DNA from: Clostridiales bacterium | GTDB taxonomy: Bacteria > Bacillota > Clostridia > Christensenellales > Borkfalkiaceae | Assembly (NCBI GenBank): GCA_015055965.1 | Contig: SVHG01000001.1 | Span: 124,001 to 188,000 of the forward strand | Direction: 5' to 3' | DNA length: 64,000 bases | Shown: positions 5,583-63,044 of the stretch, in pieces | Numbering within the stretch: position 1 is the first letter of the stretch | Layout of the letters: the number at the start of each line of letters is the position of its first letter | Notes under the pieces: generated by a model | Told to the model about the DNA's origin: nothing | Database searches by the model: none | The model's input: the letters and a program-made list of their open reading frames with translations, nothing else | Translations under genes and position numbers: made by a program

Positions 5583-5828
5583 AATATTTATTTATTTTTT
5601 TATATAGATACGTTTCCTAAATAGCGAAGTATATAAGCCTTATTGTAAATAAGCACTAGATGCGAGCGTGGCTTACGCAATGATATTGCTGATGCAAATG
5701 ATGTTTGAGCGTTGCTCAAATGATGTTTTGCTTGCGCAAAATGATATTCGCACCCGTGCGAATTTAGGGATGGCTCTTATTGTAGAATAAGGCTTCGCCT
5801 AATACGCGTAAAAGCTTATATCTCTTAA

Positions 5829-5952
5829 AATAAGCCTTAGTTGCAAGCAGTTGGCACAAACAACGAGTATTTTGCGAGGGCGCGTACTTGGCGTACGTAA
5901 CCGACGCAAAAACGCAGTTTTTGTGACAAATGCGAAGCAGATGTGGCTTATT
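5829..5952. repeat. Structured stem-loop element, copy 1
   Basis: The outer helix is AATAAGCC (5829-5836) with GGCTTATT (5945-5952). The inner helix pairs CACAAA and TTTTGCG (5855-5876) with CGCAAAA and TTTGTG (5905-5925). The apex is the conserved GCGCGTACTTGGCGTACGT hairpin. It is the third helix variant compared with the copies at 14.3 and 59.1 kb. Confidence 0.7.
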
Positions 5953-6001
5953 GTAAATAAGCACTAGATGCAAGTAGTTGGCTTACGCAAAAACTTTTTT
6001 G

Positions 6002-6100
6002 TGTCATTCTGGAGCGTTAGCGATAGAATCTCTACCCACCTCAGTTAAAGCAACCCTTTAAGACTCTATCATTTTCGCAAGCGAAAATTCCAGAGTGACA
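6002..6100. repeat. TGTCATTCTGG-type inverted repeat
   Basis: The ends TGTCATTCTGG and CCAGAGTGACA form an imperfect inverted repeat of about 99 bp with internal GATAGAATC / GACTCTATC arms. It resembles the TGTCATTCTGAG-like repeats found in many bacterial genomes. It sits inside a stem-loop element, whose two halves continue on either side. A degenerate relative lies at 55.45-55.51 kb. Confidence 0.65.
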
Positions 6101-6185
6101 AAATATTGGAGTGTGCTTTTAGCGTACGTAACCGAAAGAAATATGAGTTTTCGTGACAAATACGAAGCAGATAGGGATTATTGTA

Positions 6186-6310
6186 AATAAGCACTAGATG
6201 CGAGCTAGAGTGGTGAAACCGAGCATTGACTGAAGGGAGTTTACTTTAGCGTAAATGACCGAAGGCAAGCGCAAGGCTTCGCCTCTATAGCGAAGCAGAT
6301 AGGGCTTATT
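6186..6310. repeat. Structured stem-loop element next to prs stop
   Basis: The outer arms AATAAGC and GCTTATT enclose GATGCGAGC near one end and GCGAAGCAGAT at the other. The apical part has a TTTAC/GTAAA stem flanked by GGG and GACC, replacing the CGTAC/GTACG stem of other copies. It ends directly at the prs stop codon. Confidence 0.55.
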
Positions 6311-12320: not shown

Positions 12321-12334
12321 GTGTAAATATAGGT

Positions 12335-14283: not shown

Positions 14284-14436
14284 ATTTGAGAATAAGCTTT
14301 AGCGTAAACTTTTTAGATACAAATAAGATGAGCAAAATGCGGATTTACAATGGGCGCGTACTTGCCGTACGTAACCTGCAGTAAAACGTAAATTTTGCAA
14401 TATATTACGACGTATATAAAAAGTTTTAACTCAAAT
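14284..14436. repeat. Structured stem-loop element, copy 2
   Basis: Nested helices: ATTTGAG with CTCAAAT (outer), AAACTTTTTAGATAC (14306-14320) with GTATATAAAAAGTTT (14412-14426), then GCAAAAT/ATTTTGC and TTTAC/GTAAA flanking an internal loop. The apex is GCGCGTACTTGCCGTACGT. It sits just downstream of tsf. Its helices differ from those at 59.1 kb but pair equally well. Confidence 0.75.
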
Positions 14437-16851: not shown

Positions 16852-17733
16852 TTATAAACCTATAACTCTTTTAATTAGATTAAACAAGCCTATAATAGCG
16901 TTGTTGTTATTGTTAAAGCTACTTGAATCTTCCGGATAGCTTTGCATTGCATCTTCAAATCCGCTCATAAAAGCATCCATAAATTCGTTAACTAAATCTG
17001 TAGTTGCAATACCTAAAAGGCCAAATACTATACCGAAAGCCGCGGTAATAATGCCCGCTAAAGCCATTCCGCAGGGGCTTTTTCTTTGAACGATAATACC
17101 AAATATTAAAGCTATTATTGCGCAAATTAGCCCTATAATTGAACAACAGCAAATAGTTACGCTTACTATACCTAATACCATTGAAGCTATTGCTAAGCCT
17201 TTACCCTTTTTGCGGGGTACTTCATTATAATAGGTATTGTAATCGTTAGAATATCCGCCGGGATTTCTGTTTTGATAAGGGCTTTGGTAACTGCCTGAAT
17301 TATCGCTTCCACTTTGATAGGGATTTTGATATTCGTTAGTGTTGTATTGGTTACCACTACCGCTTTGATAGGGATTTTGATAACCGTTTTGGTTATCGCT
17401 TCCACTTTGGTAGGGATTTTGATAGCCATTGGGGGTATCATTTCCGCTTTGGTAGGGATTTTGATAACCGTTTTGGTTATCGCTTCCACTTTGATAGGGG
17501 TTTTGATAGCCGTTTTGGTTACCGCTTCCGCTTTGGTAGGGATTTTGATAACCGTTTTGGTTATCGCTTCCACTTTGATAGGGATTTTGATAGCCGTTTT
17601 GGTTACCGCTTCCGCTTTGATAGGGATTTTGATAGCCGCTAGTGTTATCGCTTCCGTTTTGATTTACGTCTTGGTTACCGCTAAGGTTACCGTTTTCATC
17701 TTGATAAGGGTTTTTATTTTCGTAATCGTTCAT
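16852..17733 (-). CDS. DUF4190 membrane protein with a 14-residue repeat region
   Basis: The first half (about residues 33-150) is a hydrophilic array of 14-residue units YQNPYQSGSxNQNG: eight clear units plus a degenerate one. The second half has two membrane segments (AIASMVLGIVSVTICCCSI... and MALAGIITAAFGIVFGLLGI) matching DUF4190. The tail is short and cytosolic or external. The repeats are nearly identical in DNA (42 bp period), so copy number probably varies by slippage. Function is unknown. The low-complexity Gln/Asn/Tyr/Ser region could be a flexible or phase-separating segment. A TTGTGC-N17-TATAAA promoter lies at 17769-17797. Confidence 0.85.
   Translation of the reverse strand: MNDYENKNPYQDENGNLSGNQDVNQNGSDNTSGYQNPYQSGSGNQNGYQNPYQSGSDNQNGYQNPYQSGSGNQNGYQNPYQSGSDNQNGYQNPYQSGNDTPNGYQNPYQSGSDNQNGYQNPYQSGSGNQYNTNEYQNPYQSGSDNSGSYQSPYQNRNPGGYSNDYNTYYNEVPRKKGKGLAIASMVLGIVSVTICCCSIIGLICAIIALIFGIIVQRKSPCGMALAGIITAAFGIVFGLLGIATTDLVNEFMDAFMSGFEDAMQSYPEDSSSFNNNNNAIIGLFNLIKRVIGL
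17283..17634. repeat. 42-bp coding tandem repeat
   Basis: Eight units of 42 bp and one diverged unit inside the DUF4190 gene. Units differ mostly in the SGSD/SGSG codons. The reading frame is kept, and long open frames on the other strand and frames here are by-products. Confidence 0.9.
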
Positions 17734-17851
17734 AATCTTTTTTCTCTTTTGTTTTATTTTATGCGCGCTTTATACGCTTAATTAAATAATAGCACAATTT
17801 AGATGAAATTTCAACTATTTTATATACCATATAAAAAAGTTTAGCAGTTGC

Positions 17852-58204: not shown

Positions 58205-58860
58205 TTGAGCACAGGGAGCGACCTTATTGGTCGCAAAGCTTATAAAATGATATTGCTAGTGCAATGATATTCGTGCGTTGCGCGAATGATGTTTTGCTAA
58301 TGCAAAATGATGTTCGCCCCAAGCGAATTAAGGGATGGCTCGTATTATCGAAAAGCCGTTGGCTTTGTAATGATATTGCTAGCGCAATGATACTCGTGCG
58401 TTGCACGAATGATGTTTTGCTAACGCAAAATGATGTTCGCACCCGTGCGAATTAAGGGATGGCTCGTATTATAGAAAAGCCGTTGGCTTTGTAATGATAT
58501 TGCTAGCGCAATGATATTCGTGCGTTGCACGAATGATGTTTTGCTAACGCAAAATGATGTTCGCCCCAAGCGAATTAAGGGATGGCTCTTATTATAGAAA
58601 AGCCGTTGGCTTTGTAATGATATTGCTAGCGCAATGATATTCGTGCGTTGCACGAATGATGTTTTGCTAACGCAAAATGATGTTCGCCCCAAGCGAATTA
58701 AGGGATGGCTCGTATTATAGAAAAGCCGTTGGCTTTGTAATGATATTGCTAGCGCAATGATATTCGTGCGTTGCACGAATGATGTTTTGCTAACGCAAAA
58801 TGATGTTCGCCCCAAGCGAATTAAGGGATGGCTCTTATTATAGAATTTAAGGCTTTGCCG
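58205..58860. repeat. Short-hairpin array with ~123-bp period
   Basis: Five units anchored at AGGGATGGCT (58331, 58455, 58578, 58701, 58824; periods 124, 123, 123, 123). Each unit strings together hairpins preceded by TGATA or TGATG: ATTGCTAGCGCAAT, ATTCGTGCGTTGCACGAAT, TTTTGCTAACGCAAAA, TTCGCCCCAAGCGAA and AAGCC-GTT-GGCTT. The units are nearly identical, so they were copied recently. A single related unit lies at 5680-5770. Confidence 0.9.
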
Positions 58861-58868
58861 CTATAACG

Positions 58869-59097
58869 AAGTATACTCAAAGGTGATGAGTAAAAAGAAT
58901 TTGAGAATATACTTTTTACAACGGATTAAGAGTTTAGATGCGAGCAAGACGAGGCGTTTTACTTTTGAGCGCAGGGAGCGACCTTGTTGGTCGCAAAGCT
59001 TATAAAATGATATCCACTTATCGGTGGGTTAAATCTTGCCTTTGTCCTATTGCGAAGTATACTCAAAGGCGATAAGTAAAAAGAATTTGAGAATAAG
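58869..59097. repeat. 43-bp direct repeats bordering stem-loop elements
   Basis: GAAGTATACTCAAAGG...GAATTTGAGAATA occurs at 58869-58911 and 59055-59097 with few differences. The two copies bracket one stem-loop element. Confidence 0.75.
58930..59064. repeat. Structured stem-loop element, copy 3
   Basis: GAGTTTAGATG pairs with GTATACTC. The apical part (GGGAGCGACCTTGTTGGTCGC) and a 55-bp stretch with it are shared with 58203-58255, where the hairpin array begins. This places the array inside the loop of a related element. Confidence 0.6.
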
Positions 59098-59238
59098 CGT
59101 AGCGGTAAAGCGTTTAGATGCAAGCAAGAGAAAAAAACTGCGGATTTAGCGAGGGCGCGTACTTGCCGTACGTAACCGACGCTAAAACGTAAAGTTTTTG
59201 CACTATCGCGAAGTATATAAGCGCTTTTATTCCAAATT
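59084..59238. repeat. Structured stem-loop element, copy 4
   Basis: Helices: AATTTGAGAATAA with TTATTCCAAATT, AAAGCGTTTAGATGC (59107-59121) with GTATATAAGCGCTTT (59213-59227), AAAAACT/AGTTTTT and TTTAGCG/CGCTAAA around an internal loop, and apical GCGCGTACTTGCCGTACGT. The apex and loop match copy 2, while the helices differ. Confidence 0.75.
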
Positions 59239-59260
59239 CCTTTTTACGAAGAGCCTATTC

Positions 59261-61276
59261 TTAATCGAGTTCGAACATACCTGTATAAAGCTGATAATAC
59301 TTACCCTTTTTCGCAATTAAATCCTCGTGATTACCGCGTTCGATAATTTCGCCGTGTTCCATAACCATAATCACGTCTGAATTGCGAATGGTAGAAAGGC
59401 GGTGAGCAATAACGAATACCGTTCTGCCTTCCATAAGCTTATCCATACCGCGTTGAACTAAAAATTCCGTTCTGGTATCTATAGAAGAAGTAGCTTCGTC
59501 TAAAATCATAACGGGGGAATCTGCAATAGCAGCGCGCGCTATAGAAAGAAGCTGTCTTTGACCTTGAGAAAGGTTTGCACCGTCGCCGGTAAGCATAGTA
59601 TCGTAGCCTTCGGGAAGTCTAGAAATAAAGTCGTGTGCGTTAGCAAGCTTAGCCGCAGCAACAATCTCTTCATCAGTAGCATCCATTCTGCCGTAGCGAA
59701 TGTTTTCTGCAATAGTTCCGCTGAATAGGTTAACCTCTTGAAGAACGACACCTAACGAACGGCGAAGATCTGCCTTTTTGATTTTATTAATATTTATACC
59801 GTCGTAACGAACCTTGCCGTCTGCAATATCGTAAAAGCGGTTAATAAGATTCGTTATAGTGGTTTTACCCGCGCCAGTTGCGCCAACTAACGCTATTTGC
59901 TGACCGGGATTTGCGTAAACCGAAATATCGTTTAAAACCTGCTTGCCTTCAACGTATTCAAAATCCACCTTTTCAAGGGTGATTTCACCGCGTAAGCGAA
60001 TATATTCAGGCTCACCCTCTTTTGCCTTGGGGTTATGCCAAGCCCAAATACCGGTATGCTCCTCGCAGGGGATAATTTCGCCATTTTCGCCTATTTTAGC
60101 GTTAACAAGGGTAATATAGCCTTCGTCTGCTTCAGGCTTTTCATCCATAAGCTCAAATACGCGTTCTGCGCCTGCAAGAGCCATAACTATACTGTTGATT
60201 TGCTGAGAAACCATGGTTATTGGGCGAGAGAAGTTTCTTGAAAGCAGCAAGAATGAAGAAACTATACCAAGCATTACGTAAGGAGTAGCGGCTTCTCCGC
60301 TGGGAACTATAAGCATACCCTTTAACGCAAGCACGCCGCCAACCATAGCAACTATAACGTACTGCAAATAGTTTAGGTTTGCCATAATAGGCATAAATAT
60401 ATTAGCAAAGGTATGCGCCTTGGTCATATTTTCACAAAGCTCGCCGTTAAGCTTATCAAAATCCTCCTTTGCTTGCTCTTCGTGGTTAAACACCTTAACA
60501 ACCTTTTGGCCGTTAGACATTTCTTCTATATAGCCGTTTAGCTTACCAACCGATTTTTGTTGAGCAATAAAGTATTTTGCGCTGTTACCGCCAACGAATT
60601 TAATAACCACAAGCATAATAATTAGGGTTGCAATTACAACTAAGGTTAACTGCCAGCTGGTGGTAACCATCATAATAAAGGAGGTAATAATGGTAACTAT
60701 ACTTGAAACGCTGTTGGGAATGCTTTGAGCGATAAGCTGTTCGATAGCATCAGTATCGTTGGTGTAACGGCTCATAATATTACCAAATTCGTTTCTATCA
60801 AAGTAAGAAATGGGTAAGCGTTGCATTTTTGAGAACAAGTCTTCCCTAACCGTTTTTAAAACGCCCTGTGATACCTTAACCATAATAAAATTGAATAAGA
60901 ATGAAGATATAATACCTATAACGTATATTATAATCATCTTAATAATTTCTTTCACTATGGGATCAAAGTTAAGAGAGCTTGCAGGCTGACCTGCCTTAAC
61001 GGCTTCAACTAAAACACCTATTTGTTTGATTAATTCCTTTAAAAAGTCTGCAGCGTATAAGCTTGCTACTGCGCTTAAGCCTATACATATTAAAACTACG
61101 ACTATTCTTAACGCGTAACCTTTAATTAAATAGCCAAGCAATCTTGCAAAGGTTTTACCCGCGTTCTTTGCGCCACGCTTCATTTTTTTACCACCCGGCA
61201 TTCCGGGATGACCTTGTTTTCCCTTTTCCATAGGCGCTTGGTTGGGAGGCATTTTTTTGTTTTTATCTTTATTCAT
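59261..61276 (-). CDS. ABC exporter half-transporter with canonical site
   Basis: About 671 residues. Gly/Met/Lys-rich N-terminus, six membrane helices, then the ATPase: GATGAGKTT, LSQGQRQLLSIARA, MILDEATSSID with catalytic Glu. It pairs with the upstream gene as a heterodimer like LmrCD/BmrCD, multidrug or lipid exporters. ATG 61276 follows GGAGG and overlaps the partner's end by 8 bp. A repeat element lies directly downstream. Confidence 0.93.
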   Translation of the reverse strand: MNKDKNKKMPPNQAPMEKGKQGHPGMPGGKKMKRGAKNAGKTFARLLGYLIKGYALRIVVVLICIGLSAVASLYAADFLKELIKQIGVLVEAVKAGQPASSLNFDPIVKEIIKMIIIYVIGIISSFLFNFIMVKVSQGVLKTVREDLFSKMQRLPISYFDRNEFGNIMSRYTNDTDAIEQLIAQSIPNSVSSIVTIITSFIMMVTTSWQLTLVVIATLIIMLVVIKFVGGNSAKYFIAQQKSVGKLNGYIEEMSNGQKVVKVFNHEEQAKEDFDKLNGELCENMTKAHTFANIFMPIMANLNYLQYVIVAMVGGVLALKGMLIVPSGEAATPYVMLGIVSSFLLLSRNFSRPITMVSQQINSIVMALAGAERVFELMDEKPEADEGYITLVNAKIGENGEIIPCEEHTGIWAWHNPKAKEGEPEYIRLRGEITLEKVDFEYVEGKQVLNDISVYANPGQQIALVGATGAGKTTITNLINRFYDIADGKVRYDGININKIKKADLRRSLGVVLQEVNLFSGTIAENIRYGRMDATDEEIVAAAKLANAHDFISRLPEGYDTMLTGDGANLSQGQRQLLSIARAAIADSPVMILDEATSSIDTRTEFLVQRGMDKLMEGRTVFVIAHRLSTIRNSDVIMVMEHGEIIERGNHEDLIAKKGKYYQLYTGMFELD

Positions 61277-63044
61277 TTTCAGAGCCTCCTTTATTTTGTG
61301 AGTAATATACCTCTTGGTAAATTTCGTTGGTAGCAAGTAGCTCGTCGTGATTACCAAAGCCTACCACCTTGCCGCCTTCCATTACTATAATCTTATCTGC
61401 ATCCTGAACGGAAGCTATACGCTGAGCTATAATAATCTTGGTTGTAGTGGGAATATATTCCTTAAAGCCCTTTCTAATAAGAGCGTCCGTTCTGGTATCT
61501 ACTGCAGAGGTAGAGTCGTCTAAAATTAAAATCTTTGGCTTTTTAAGCAGCGCTCTTGCAATACATAAGCGTTGCTTTTGACCGCCTGATACGTTAGCAC
61601 CGCCTTGGTCTATAAGGGTATCGTATTTATCGGGGAAGCTATTTATAAACTCTGCTGCTTGAGCAAGCTCGCAAGCTTCTGCAATTTCTTCGTCCGTTGC
61701 GTTTTCATTACCCCAACGAAGGTTTTCTTTAATAGTGCCGGAGAATAGAACGTTCTTTTGTAAAACTACTGAAACGGCATCACGAAGCACCTTTAAATCG
61801 TATTCCTTAACGTTTACACCGCCAACCTTAACCTCGCCCTCGGTTGCGTCGTAAAGGCGGGGAATAAGCTGAATTAAGGTGGTTTTGGAAGAACCCGTTC
61901 CACCGATTATACCTATCGTTTGCCCAGATTCAATCTTTAAATCAACGTCCGTTAAGCATAATTTATCCTTCTTTGATTTATAGCTAAAGTTAACGTCTTT
62001 AAACTCAATAGAGCCGTCTATAACTTCGTTAACGGCATTTTCGGGGCTTAAAATATCACTATGCTCATCTAATACCTCGCATATTCTTTTTGCAGGCGCT
62101 TCTGCAATAGTTATTTGAACGAAGATCATAGAAAGCATCATAAGACTCATAAGAACCTGCGTTACGTAAGTGATTAAGGTAGAAAGCTCACTTGCGGTAA
62201 ATCCACCAACAACGGTAGCATCCCCAATAACCGCCTTAGTACCAAACCAACAAATTAAAACTGTGGATGCGTAAACGGCAAGATTCATTAAGGGGTTGTT
62301 AAAGGCAACTATTCTTTCTGCCTTAACGAAATCCTTATGGATTTGACCGGAAGCCTCTTTAAATTTTCTGGTTTCCTCATCTTCACGCACGTAGGTTTTA
62401 ACAACACGCATACCGCGAATGTTTTCTTGAACTACTACGTTTAATCTATCGTAATTCTTAAATACCTTATCAAACACGGGGAAGGCAAGCTTCATAATAA
62501 TAAGCAATCCTACTGCTAATAAGGGAATGGTTGCTAAAAATACAAGCGCTAGCTTTGCGTTAAGCATAAAGCTCATAATTAGCGTGAATATCAAGTTTAG
62601 GGGGGCACGTACTGCAATTCTTATAACCATTTGGAATGCCATTTGAACCCAGTTAACGTCCGTAGTCATTCTTGTTATAAGCGAAGAAGAAGAGAATTTA
62701 TCTATATTGTTAAAAGAATAATTTTGAACGCTATAGAACATATTCTTTCTTAAATTCTTTGCAAAGCCCGCAGATGAAATTGCCGCCATTCTGCCGGACA
62801 TAGCGCCAAAATATAAAGCAACTAAGGCAAACACAACCAGCAATCCACCGTAGCCCAAAATTTGCTTAATGGGATCGCCCGCGGTAACCGCGTTTGGATC
62901 GCCCGCATTTTCTATAACTGCAAGCAGCTTACTCATTACGTAAGGGATAAGCACGTCAAAAATAACCTCTAAGGTTACGAAAATAGGGGTAAGAATGGTT
63001 TGCTTTTTATACTCCCCTATGCTTTTTGAAAGCTTTTTAATCAT
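61269..63044 (-). CDS. ABC exporter half-transporter with degenerate catalytic site
   Basis: About 591 residues. Six-helix membrane domain and an ATPase with GGTGSSKTT, VSGGQKQRLCIARA and LILDDSTSAVD, where the catalytic Glu is Asp. This marks the degenerate site of heterodimeric exporters (as in TM287/288). I choose ATG 63044, 8 nt after AGGA and just past the MarR stop; starts at 63068 and 63053 are possible. It is co-translated with both neighbours. Confidence 0.92.
   Translation of the reverse strand: MIKKLSKSIGEYKKQTILTPIFVTLEVIFDVLIPYVMSKLLAVIENAGDPNAVTAGDPIKQILGYGGLLVVFALVALYFGAMSGRMAAISSAGFAKNLRKNMFYSVQNYSFNNIDKFSSSSLITRMTTDVNWVQMAFQMVIRIAVRAPLNLIFTLIMSFMLNAKLALVFLATIPLLAVGLLIIMKLAFPVFDKVFKNYDRLNVVVQENIRGMRVVKTYVREDEETRKFKEASGQIHKDFVKAERIVAFNNPLMNLAVYASTVLICWFGTKAVIGDATVVGGFTASELSTLITYVTQVLMSLMMLSMIFVQITIAEAPAKRICEVLDEHSDILSPENAVNEVIDGSIEFKDVNFSYKSKKDKLCLTDVDLKIESGQTIGIIGGTGSSKTTLIQLIPRLYDATEGEVKVGGVNVKEYDLKVLRDAVSVVLQKNVLFSGTIKENLRWGNENATDEEIAEACELAQAAEFINSFPDKYDTLIDQGGANVSGGQKQRLCIARALLKKPKILILDDSTSAVDTRTDALIRKGFKEYIPTTTKIIIAQRIASVQDADKIIVMEGGKVVGFGNHDELLATNEIYQEVYYSQNKGGSENE

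Follow-up and report, generated by a model that had tools for sequence, protein, structure and literature searches.

Integron attC sites lie just after the stop codon of a cassette, vary in their stem while their structure is kept, and work as the antisense (bottom) strand. Among the dispersed repeats, REP elements are strand-specific hairpins with a needed mismatch that make contact with stop codons (PMC8266576, PMC3733652), and ERIC, bcr1, NEMIS, YPAL, and EFAR are long hairpins of approximately 100 to 170 bp that are intergenic, multicopy, and non-coding and lie beside coding sequences (PMC3733652, PMC2267715). The stem-loop families of Petrillo et al. 2008 (Efa-1, Sta-1, Clop-1, and Rpe) are structured intergenic repeats as well, which were found genome by genome (PMC2267715). 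Furthermore, ribosome termination structures (RTS) have been described just past stop codons in 128 genomes (PMC7518266).

The element analyzed here was identified in a 64,000-nt stretch of a contig from an uncultured gut Clostridiales bacterium (SVHG01000001.1, assembly GCA_015055965.1), referred to below as the window. Its kind, the palindromic, non-coding, mobile intergenic repeat, is already known, with EFAR and the families of Petrillo et al. compared by description only. It resembles ERIC, bcr1, NEMIS, YPAL, and EFAR in being palindromic and MITE-like, in size, in its intergenic location, in its many copies, and in its lack of coding capacity. However, ERIC-type repeats are described in one or a few related lineages, whereas the apex of the present element is retained across phyla; unlike them, it is also flush with a stop codon in one orientation and carries a purine-rich apical internal loop. 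By description, EFAR, from E. faecalis, is the most similar in behavior. While the element is cross-phylum, no cross-phylum family is proposed in the accessible portion of Petrillo et al. (PMC2267715), a comparison again made by description only. Rfam yielded no match in the window and nothing relevant at a relaxed E-value for the focal copy and for loci from other lineages. Moreover, a search by sequence words and by description, conducted mostly outside the subscription literature, revealed no published family that matches the element.

Fold, covariation, and folding strand

Three elements with a common apex, reported in the first-pass annotation, were recovered where it had placed them. The apex word GCGCGTACTTGNCGTACGTAACC occurs 3 times in the window compared to 0 times in 100 shuffles, and 11 times in the 2.06 Mb genome compared to 0 for a reversed control word. 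Four window copies share one fold, in which variable, compensating stems surround fixed loops (Table 1), and they fold better than shuffled sequences (z-scores of -4.2, -2.2, -5.4, and -5.2). For one of them, the proposed start at 59084 belongs to a real copy but lies approximately 20 nt outside the shared core, which begins at 59106. Two further variants had been proposed. The one ending beside prs fits the same model, whereas the other, diverged one shares the ends and has the GGGAGCGACC/GGTCGC apex, but its window copy scored below the threshold of the model and was not recovered; full-length relatives of this variant were recovered by the model elsewhere in the genome (G000:C6:35415 and C10:18520).

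Table 1. Copies and variants of the element in the window, with bit scores from covariance model R1.
Feature	Coordinates	Strand	Score (bits)	Stems, apex, and end motifs	Adjacent gene end
Left end with hairpin array replacing the apex	5640..5828	+		left end TAGATGCGAGC; array linked by ATGATGTT (sequence inspection)	
Core element, part of a head-to-tail array	5829..5952	+	105.4	P1 AATAAGCC/GGCTTATT	
Degraded copy	5953..6185	+		split by another palindromic repeat, GTGTCATTCTGGAGC...TTCCAGAGTGACA (sequence inspection)	
Core element	6186..6310	+	93.0	apex GGGAGTTTACTTTAGCGTAAATGACC	3' end directly abuts prs stop (minus strand, 6311)
Core element	14305..14427	+	114.9	outer stem AAACTTTTTA/TAAAAAGTTT	adjoins tsf (EF-Ts) stop (minus strand, 14460)
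Diverged variant	58930..59064	+		apex GGGAGCGACC/GGTCGC; end motifs TAGATGCGAGC and GCGAAGTATA (sequence inspection)	
Copy including extra outer stem	59084..59250	+		outer stem GAATTTGAGAATAAGCG/CGCTTTTATTCCAAATTC	outer-stem end ~10 nt from ABC-transporter stop (ORF 59261-61357, minus strand)
Core element	59106..59228	+	131.8	P1 AAAGCGTTTA/TAAGCGCTTT; P1b ATGC/GTAT; P2 AAAAACT/AGTTTTT; P3 TTTAGCG/CGCTAAA; apex GGGCGCGTACTTGCCGTACGTAACC at 59153-59177	

The element spans approximately 100 to 125 nt and is longer where an extra outer stem is present, as in the copies with cores at 59106 and 14305. Read on the strand of the original finding, it starts with P1, a stem of 8 to 13 bp that differs in almost every locus, followed by a conserved G.A mismatch and the 4-bp P1b, which occurs in the versions ATGC/GTAT, ATGC/GCAT, ATAC/GTAT, AACC/GGTT, AAAC/GTTT, and AAGG/CCTT. 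Inside P1b follow a GA/GAA loop, a GC pair, and the variable P2, which is connected to the likewise variable P3 by a GCG-GA / A-CGY-AA joint. The apex is built in the order GG, 3x3 loop, P4, TTNNC, P4', and CC, with the consensus GGG[AC]G-P4-TTNNC-P4'-T[GA]ACC. Its purine-rich 3x3 loop beside P4 reads GAG/TGA, GCG/TAA, or GAT/TGA and is retained across phyla, and the pair adjoining P4 is G.U in 222 of 263 paired cells and never A.C or U.G.

The claim of fixed loops combined with compensating stem changes was borne out by the covariance model R1, built from 13 copies. In this seed, 24 of 41 pairs showed changes on both sides with pairing retained, and 88% of cells were paired compared to 28% to 44% in slid controls. 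A 45-sequence alignment contained double changes in 34 of 40 pairs (86.6% of cells paired; slid controls, 27% to 41%), and for three alignments from different lineages, this one among them, the corresponding values were 34/40, 35/40, and 25/40, with 83% to 87% of cells paired compared to 27% to 43% in slid controls. As these three alignments were fitted to the model and hence lean towards pairing, the weight of the figures rests on the slid controls and on the variety of stems. The covariation is thus strong, and, as stated above, Rfam holds no match.

Mismatches within the outer stem (P1 and P1b), counted on alignments fitted to the pairing model, comprised 164 G.T but only 46 A.C, while P3 was without strand bias (36 GT and 39 AC). 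Since an unconstrained double-stranded palindrome should give equal numbers of both, the large excess of G.T indicates that the + strand folds. The folded strand is therefore the strand as originally read, with RNA and single-stranded DNA both compatible with this result.

Placement at gene ends and taxonomic distribution

The main feature of the element, absent from the first-pass annotation, is that its 3' end comes to lie flush against the stop codon of an opposite-strand gene. Among loci outside the window, a simple longest-ORF method, which is weak in GC-rich DNA, called a gene on the 3' side of 154 elements, and for 125 of them the stop faced is antisense; 64 of these 125 lie at -3 to +6 nt from the stop, and 15 more overlap it further. 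On the 5' side, none of 43 sense stops was found within -3 to +6 nt. In the genome studied here, all 37 scored copies face an antisense stop, although these represent approximately 18 separate intergenic loci, as arrays and near-duplicates are non-independent. Most of the 3'-most copies are located at -5 to +2 nt from the stop, and the six copies found at 27 to 39 nt are of the type with the extra outer stem, which fills the gap. Copies in Deltaproteobacteria often follow directly after TGA, TAG, or TAA, as judged by eye, whereas in Selenomonadales and Rikenellaceae the orientation rule is kept but flush placement is less frequent.

Stable RNA genes are approached in a different sense. Three Clostridia genomes harbor matches within rRNA operons on the sense strand. 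In the two operons scanned, the 23S start lies 3 and 8 nt past the element and the 5S start 5 nt past it in one and approximately 77 nt in the other; one rRNA-operon copy is located approximately 210 nt ahead of the 16S, and in Edaphobacillus a tRNA starts 6 nt past the element. The folded strand is thus antisense to its neighbor at protein genes but corresponds to the transcribed strand in rRNA and tRNA operons. For this reason, replication-fork orientation was rejected, by reasoning, as the cause of the one-way placement.

In seven loci (L128, L135, L140, L156, L175, L233, and L259), the palindrome reaches 6 to approximately 26 nt into the last codons of the neighboring gene, so that the distal flank repeats the gene end in inverted form. 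Such an arrangement is not the outcome of a simple insertion and counts against a mobile reading.

The covariance model identified 43 copies in this genome. Several of its contig ends (C1, C3, C5, C9, C10, and C13) lie in or beside these repeats, and genome copy counts are therefore probably low. Matches were found in 144 of 201 genomes of the family, a lower bound as no more than 17 candidates per genome were scored, and in 19 of 291 genomes of the class, while the strict apex occurred in 0 of 397 additional genomes sampled from the phylum. A scan of 84,980 species mostly listed matches in Clostridia metagenome-assembled genomes (MAGs); among the matches listed are also Edaphobacillus, Staphylococcus pragensis, Alistipes, Rikenellaceae, Saprospiraceae, Selenomonadales, Sandaracinaceae, Rickettsiales, Cellvibrionaceae, and Deltaproteobacteria. 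Genome-wide counts reached 134 copies in the Deltaproteobacteria MAG WY2.bin34, 50 and 46 in two Clostridia/Christensenellaceae MAGs, 34 in a Selenomonadales genome, 26 each in Rikenellaceae and Sandaracinaceae, 23 in Saprospiraceae, and 13 in Alistipes, bearing in mind that MAG records can carry contamination. Edaphobacillus, Staphylococcus, Cellvibrionaceae, and Rickettsiales harbor 1 copy each, and the single weak matches in Staphylococcus (38 bits), Rickettsiales (32 bits), and Cellvibrionaceae (36 bits) are suggestive only.

Gain, loss, and explanations of the element

Two loci were compared across genomes, fhs (FTHFS; 52 genomes with the gene, 30 of them read) and a fakA-like gene that precedes a recG-like gene (in 60 genomes, of which 30 were read). 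Approximately one-third of the genomes read carry the element, mostly right after the stop codon, and others have a short spacer without a palindrome. Copies at the same locus were mostly less alike than copies from the same genome (e.g., L328 with L121, 85%; L348 with L103, 77%), with L311 and L314 as an exception (same locus, 91%), and the P1 sequence AAAAACGGATT occurs at two loci of genome G137. The nearest relatives are thus mostly found in the same genome and not at the same locus, which indicates largely independent gains and a P1 that moves together with its copy.

Within genome G424, two 23S-5S spacers are empty (L349 and L350), one carries the element (L281), and two contain a shortened form (L351 and L352). 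The latter retains just P1 and P1b, a pattern resembling deletion of the hairpin between short direct repeats. Presence and absence at one site in near-identical backgrounds were thus observed both in these rRNA spacers and in the gains at fhs and the fakA-like gene. Loss or gene conversion could alternatively account for the rRNA-operon pattern, and the empty L349 and L350 spacers contain no clear target-site duplication. Given the independent gains at the same stop codon and the rRNA operons of one genome that are without the element, the copies are probably mobile.

That P1 differs per locus first suggested insertion into pre-existing terminator loops. This idea was rejected, as the spacers after fhs in L320, L323, and L346 are short and contain no palindrome, i.e., no pre-existing hairpin, and P1 is absent from the empty rRNA spacer; furthermore, the start points of ordinary hairpins at these loci are scattered between -12 and +30 nt, which also counts against it. 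An autonomous parent of 3.2 kb, suspected from copies approximately 3.2 kb apart, was dismissed because these copies flank the 23S rRNA. Likewise, a phage origin was rejected: on sequence inspection, strict-apex matches in viral contigs were chance matches in coding sequence, and 5 viral contigs from a second apex scan gave no match in the model search. Two human-faecal phage records showed a 30-nt match (E 9e-3), and two distant copies had no plasmid matches.

Potential partner genes were searched for in two protein families, Y1_Tnp and RVT_1, of which diverged members could be missed. Y1_Tnp (PF01797) was found in only 5 of 30 genomes and is absent from the genome studied here (G000), from the genome with 134 copies (G585), and from G588, G589, G591, G583, and G590, whereas the reverse transcriptase RVT_1 (PF00078), also found in only 5 of 30, is absent from G000, G585, G588, G591, and most others. 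As neither occurs in most high-copy genomes tested, both were rejected as partners. No mobility gene was thus found with the element in these searches, which counts against a mobile reading.

On balance, we favor the reading of the element as a non-autonomous mobile hairpin, the folded form of which is RNA or single-stranded DNA, and assign it a probability of roughly 0.58. The element would move as a folded single strand, with its apex and G.A loops recognized by some factor and the junction set at the 3' end of the strand; a junction fixed there would place this end against an opposite-strand stop or the 5' end of a stable RNA. While the stems would drift, selection, template-switch correction of imperfect palindromes, or both may re-establish their pairing. 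With respect to the stop codon, an enzyme might act at the border of ribosome-free or R-loop DNA, an idea that the upstream border of stable RNAs would fit as well; alternatively, selection might act against every other site. The spacers on the 5' side often exceed 150 nt, yet the element stays at the stop, which counts against plain selection. As an alternative to an insertion rule, the 3'-flush rule could result from selection on where insertions survive. Possible, though clearly more tentative, is a cross-phylum mobile class not recognized before, whose folded strand is recognized by its apex and joined by its 3' end to gene ends, and which is moved by neither Y1 nor reverse transcriptase but possibly by a broadly conserved host factor.

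The one-way, stop-flush placement points to a mobile element or gene-end signal of a little-known kind. Should the stop-codon rule govern insertion, something in bacteria can read gene ends in DNA or RNA, and no enzyme is known for the element that exploits this. Should selection set the rule, the element amounts to a ready-made signal for gene ends with a cross-phylum spread. In either case, the conserved apex provides a bait for its binding factor, and the many copies (134 in one MAG) render both readings testable.

The results also bear on the nature of the folded molecule. A conserved folded nucleic acid, as proposed in the first-pass annotation, stands, with strong covariation and no corresponding Rfam family. 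Its reading as an RNA gene or regulatory RNA goes beyond these results. The folded strand is antisense to neighboring protein genes, every copy brings its own P1, insertions have arisen repeatedly and independently, and a single genome can contain empty sites, which is the behavior of a non-autonomous mobile hairpin. The element also cautions that a repeat with strong covariation need not be a regulatory RNA.

A functional placement would be expected if the element were a cis-acting RNA at gene ends, acting as a ribosome termination structure, an mRNA 3' stabilizer, or an antisense terminator or firewall. The flush placement in both Firmicutes and Deltaproteobacteria is in line with this, as is P1, which often reads AAAAC...GTTTT and resembles a bidirectional terminator; moreover, the element shares with the RTS known from 128 genomes (PMC7518266) a stable structure immediately 3' of stop codons. 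However, RTS are an mRNA folding property and not a homologous repeat, and the better fold of the element is on the opposite strand, with the G.T bias favoring the strand antisense to the gene. Considering also that many close relatives have no hairpin at the same gene (L320, L323, and L346), that copy number varies from none to more than 100 between genomes, and that the element precedes rRNA and tRNA in sense orientation, we regard a cis-acting RNA as unlikely.

It is rather improbable that the compensating changes mainly reflect template-switch correction of imperfect DNA palindromes in place of structural selection. While the palindrome extending into the last codons of the gene in the seven loci listed above is what outward correction would produce, the internal loops and the apex remain uncorrected across phyla, and one strand accommodates G.T much more readily than A.C.

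A site similar to integron attC, where a tyrosine recombinase would act on the folded bottom strand beside the stop, appears very improbable. The geometry would be the same, i.e., a folded antisense strand directly after the stop, with a variable stem and a conserved structure. However, inspection of the element ends, which read TAAAAC...GTTTTA or other sequences, revealed no RYYYAAC/GTTRRRY core, and, unlike in integrons, there is no cassette array, the neighbors being fixed housekeeping genes (EF-Ts, prs, and fhs) that persist as the element is gained and lost.

Finally, mobilization by a Y1 (HUH) transposase, as for a REP-type or IS200/IS605-derived element, is mostly refuted and scarcely tenable, for although the element shares with REP/TnpA-REP (RAYT) a dispersed, strand-specific mismatch hairpin that would suit such an enzyme, and REPs also provide or abut stop codons (PMC3733652), the Y1 transposase is missing from most high-copy genomes tested, no GTAG or CGTC tag beside a 20 to 40 nt palindrome was seen on inspection of the aligned copies, and the element, at approximately 120 nt, is several times the length of a REP (20 to 40 nt).

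Other repeats in the window and at fhs

The intergenic regions that harbor the element also contain a second palindromic family. It consists of tandem 123-bp units (58246-58860 and 5697-5787), each comprising four short hairpins joined by AATGATRTT, and sometimes replaces the apex of the element. At 6005-6105, a copy of the element has received an insertion of a third palindromic repeat (GTGTCATTCTGGAGC...TTCCAGAGTGACA). Furthermore, short dispersed palindromes of the form CTATAGGTCGATTATCG + TATTTTA occur in at least 12 copies in the window, at 12334, 16355, 25819, 26899, 29120, 47843, 53913, and 56481, among other positions, and nine 42-bp coding repeats are found within an ORF at 17263-17763. 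In other genomes (L322, L338, L342, and L345), the fhs stop is followed by arrays of short hairpins joined by GTGAATTG. These arrays lie near the stop where related genomes carry the element, and another repeat family may thus use the same place.
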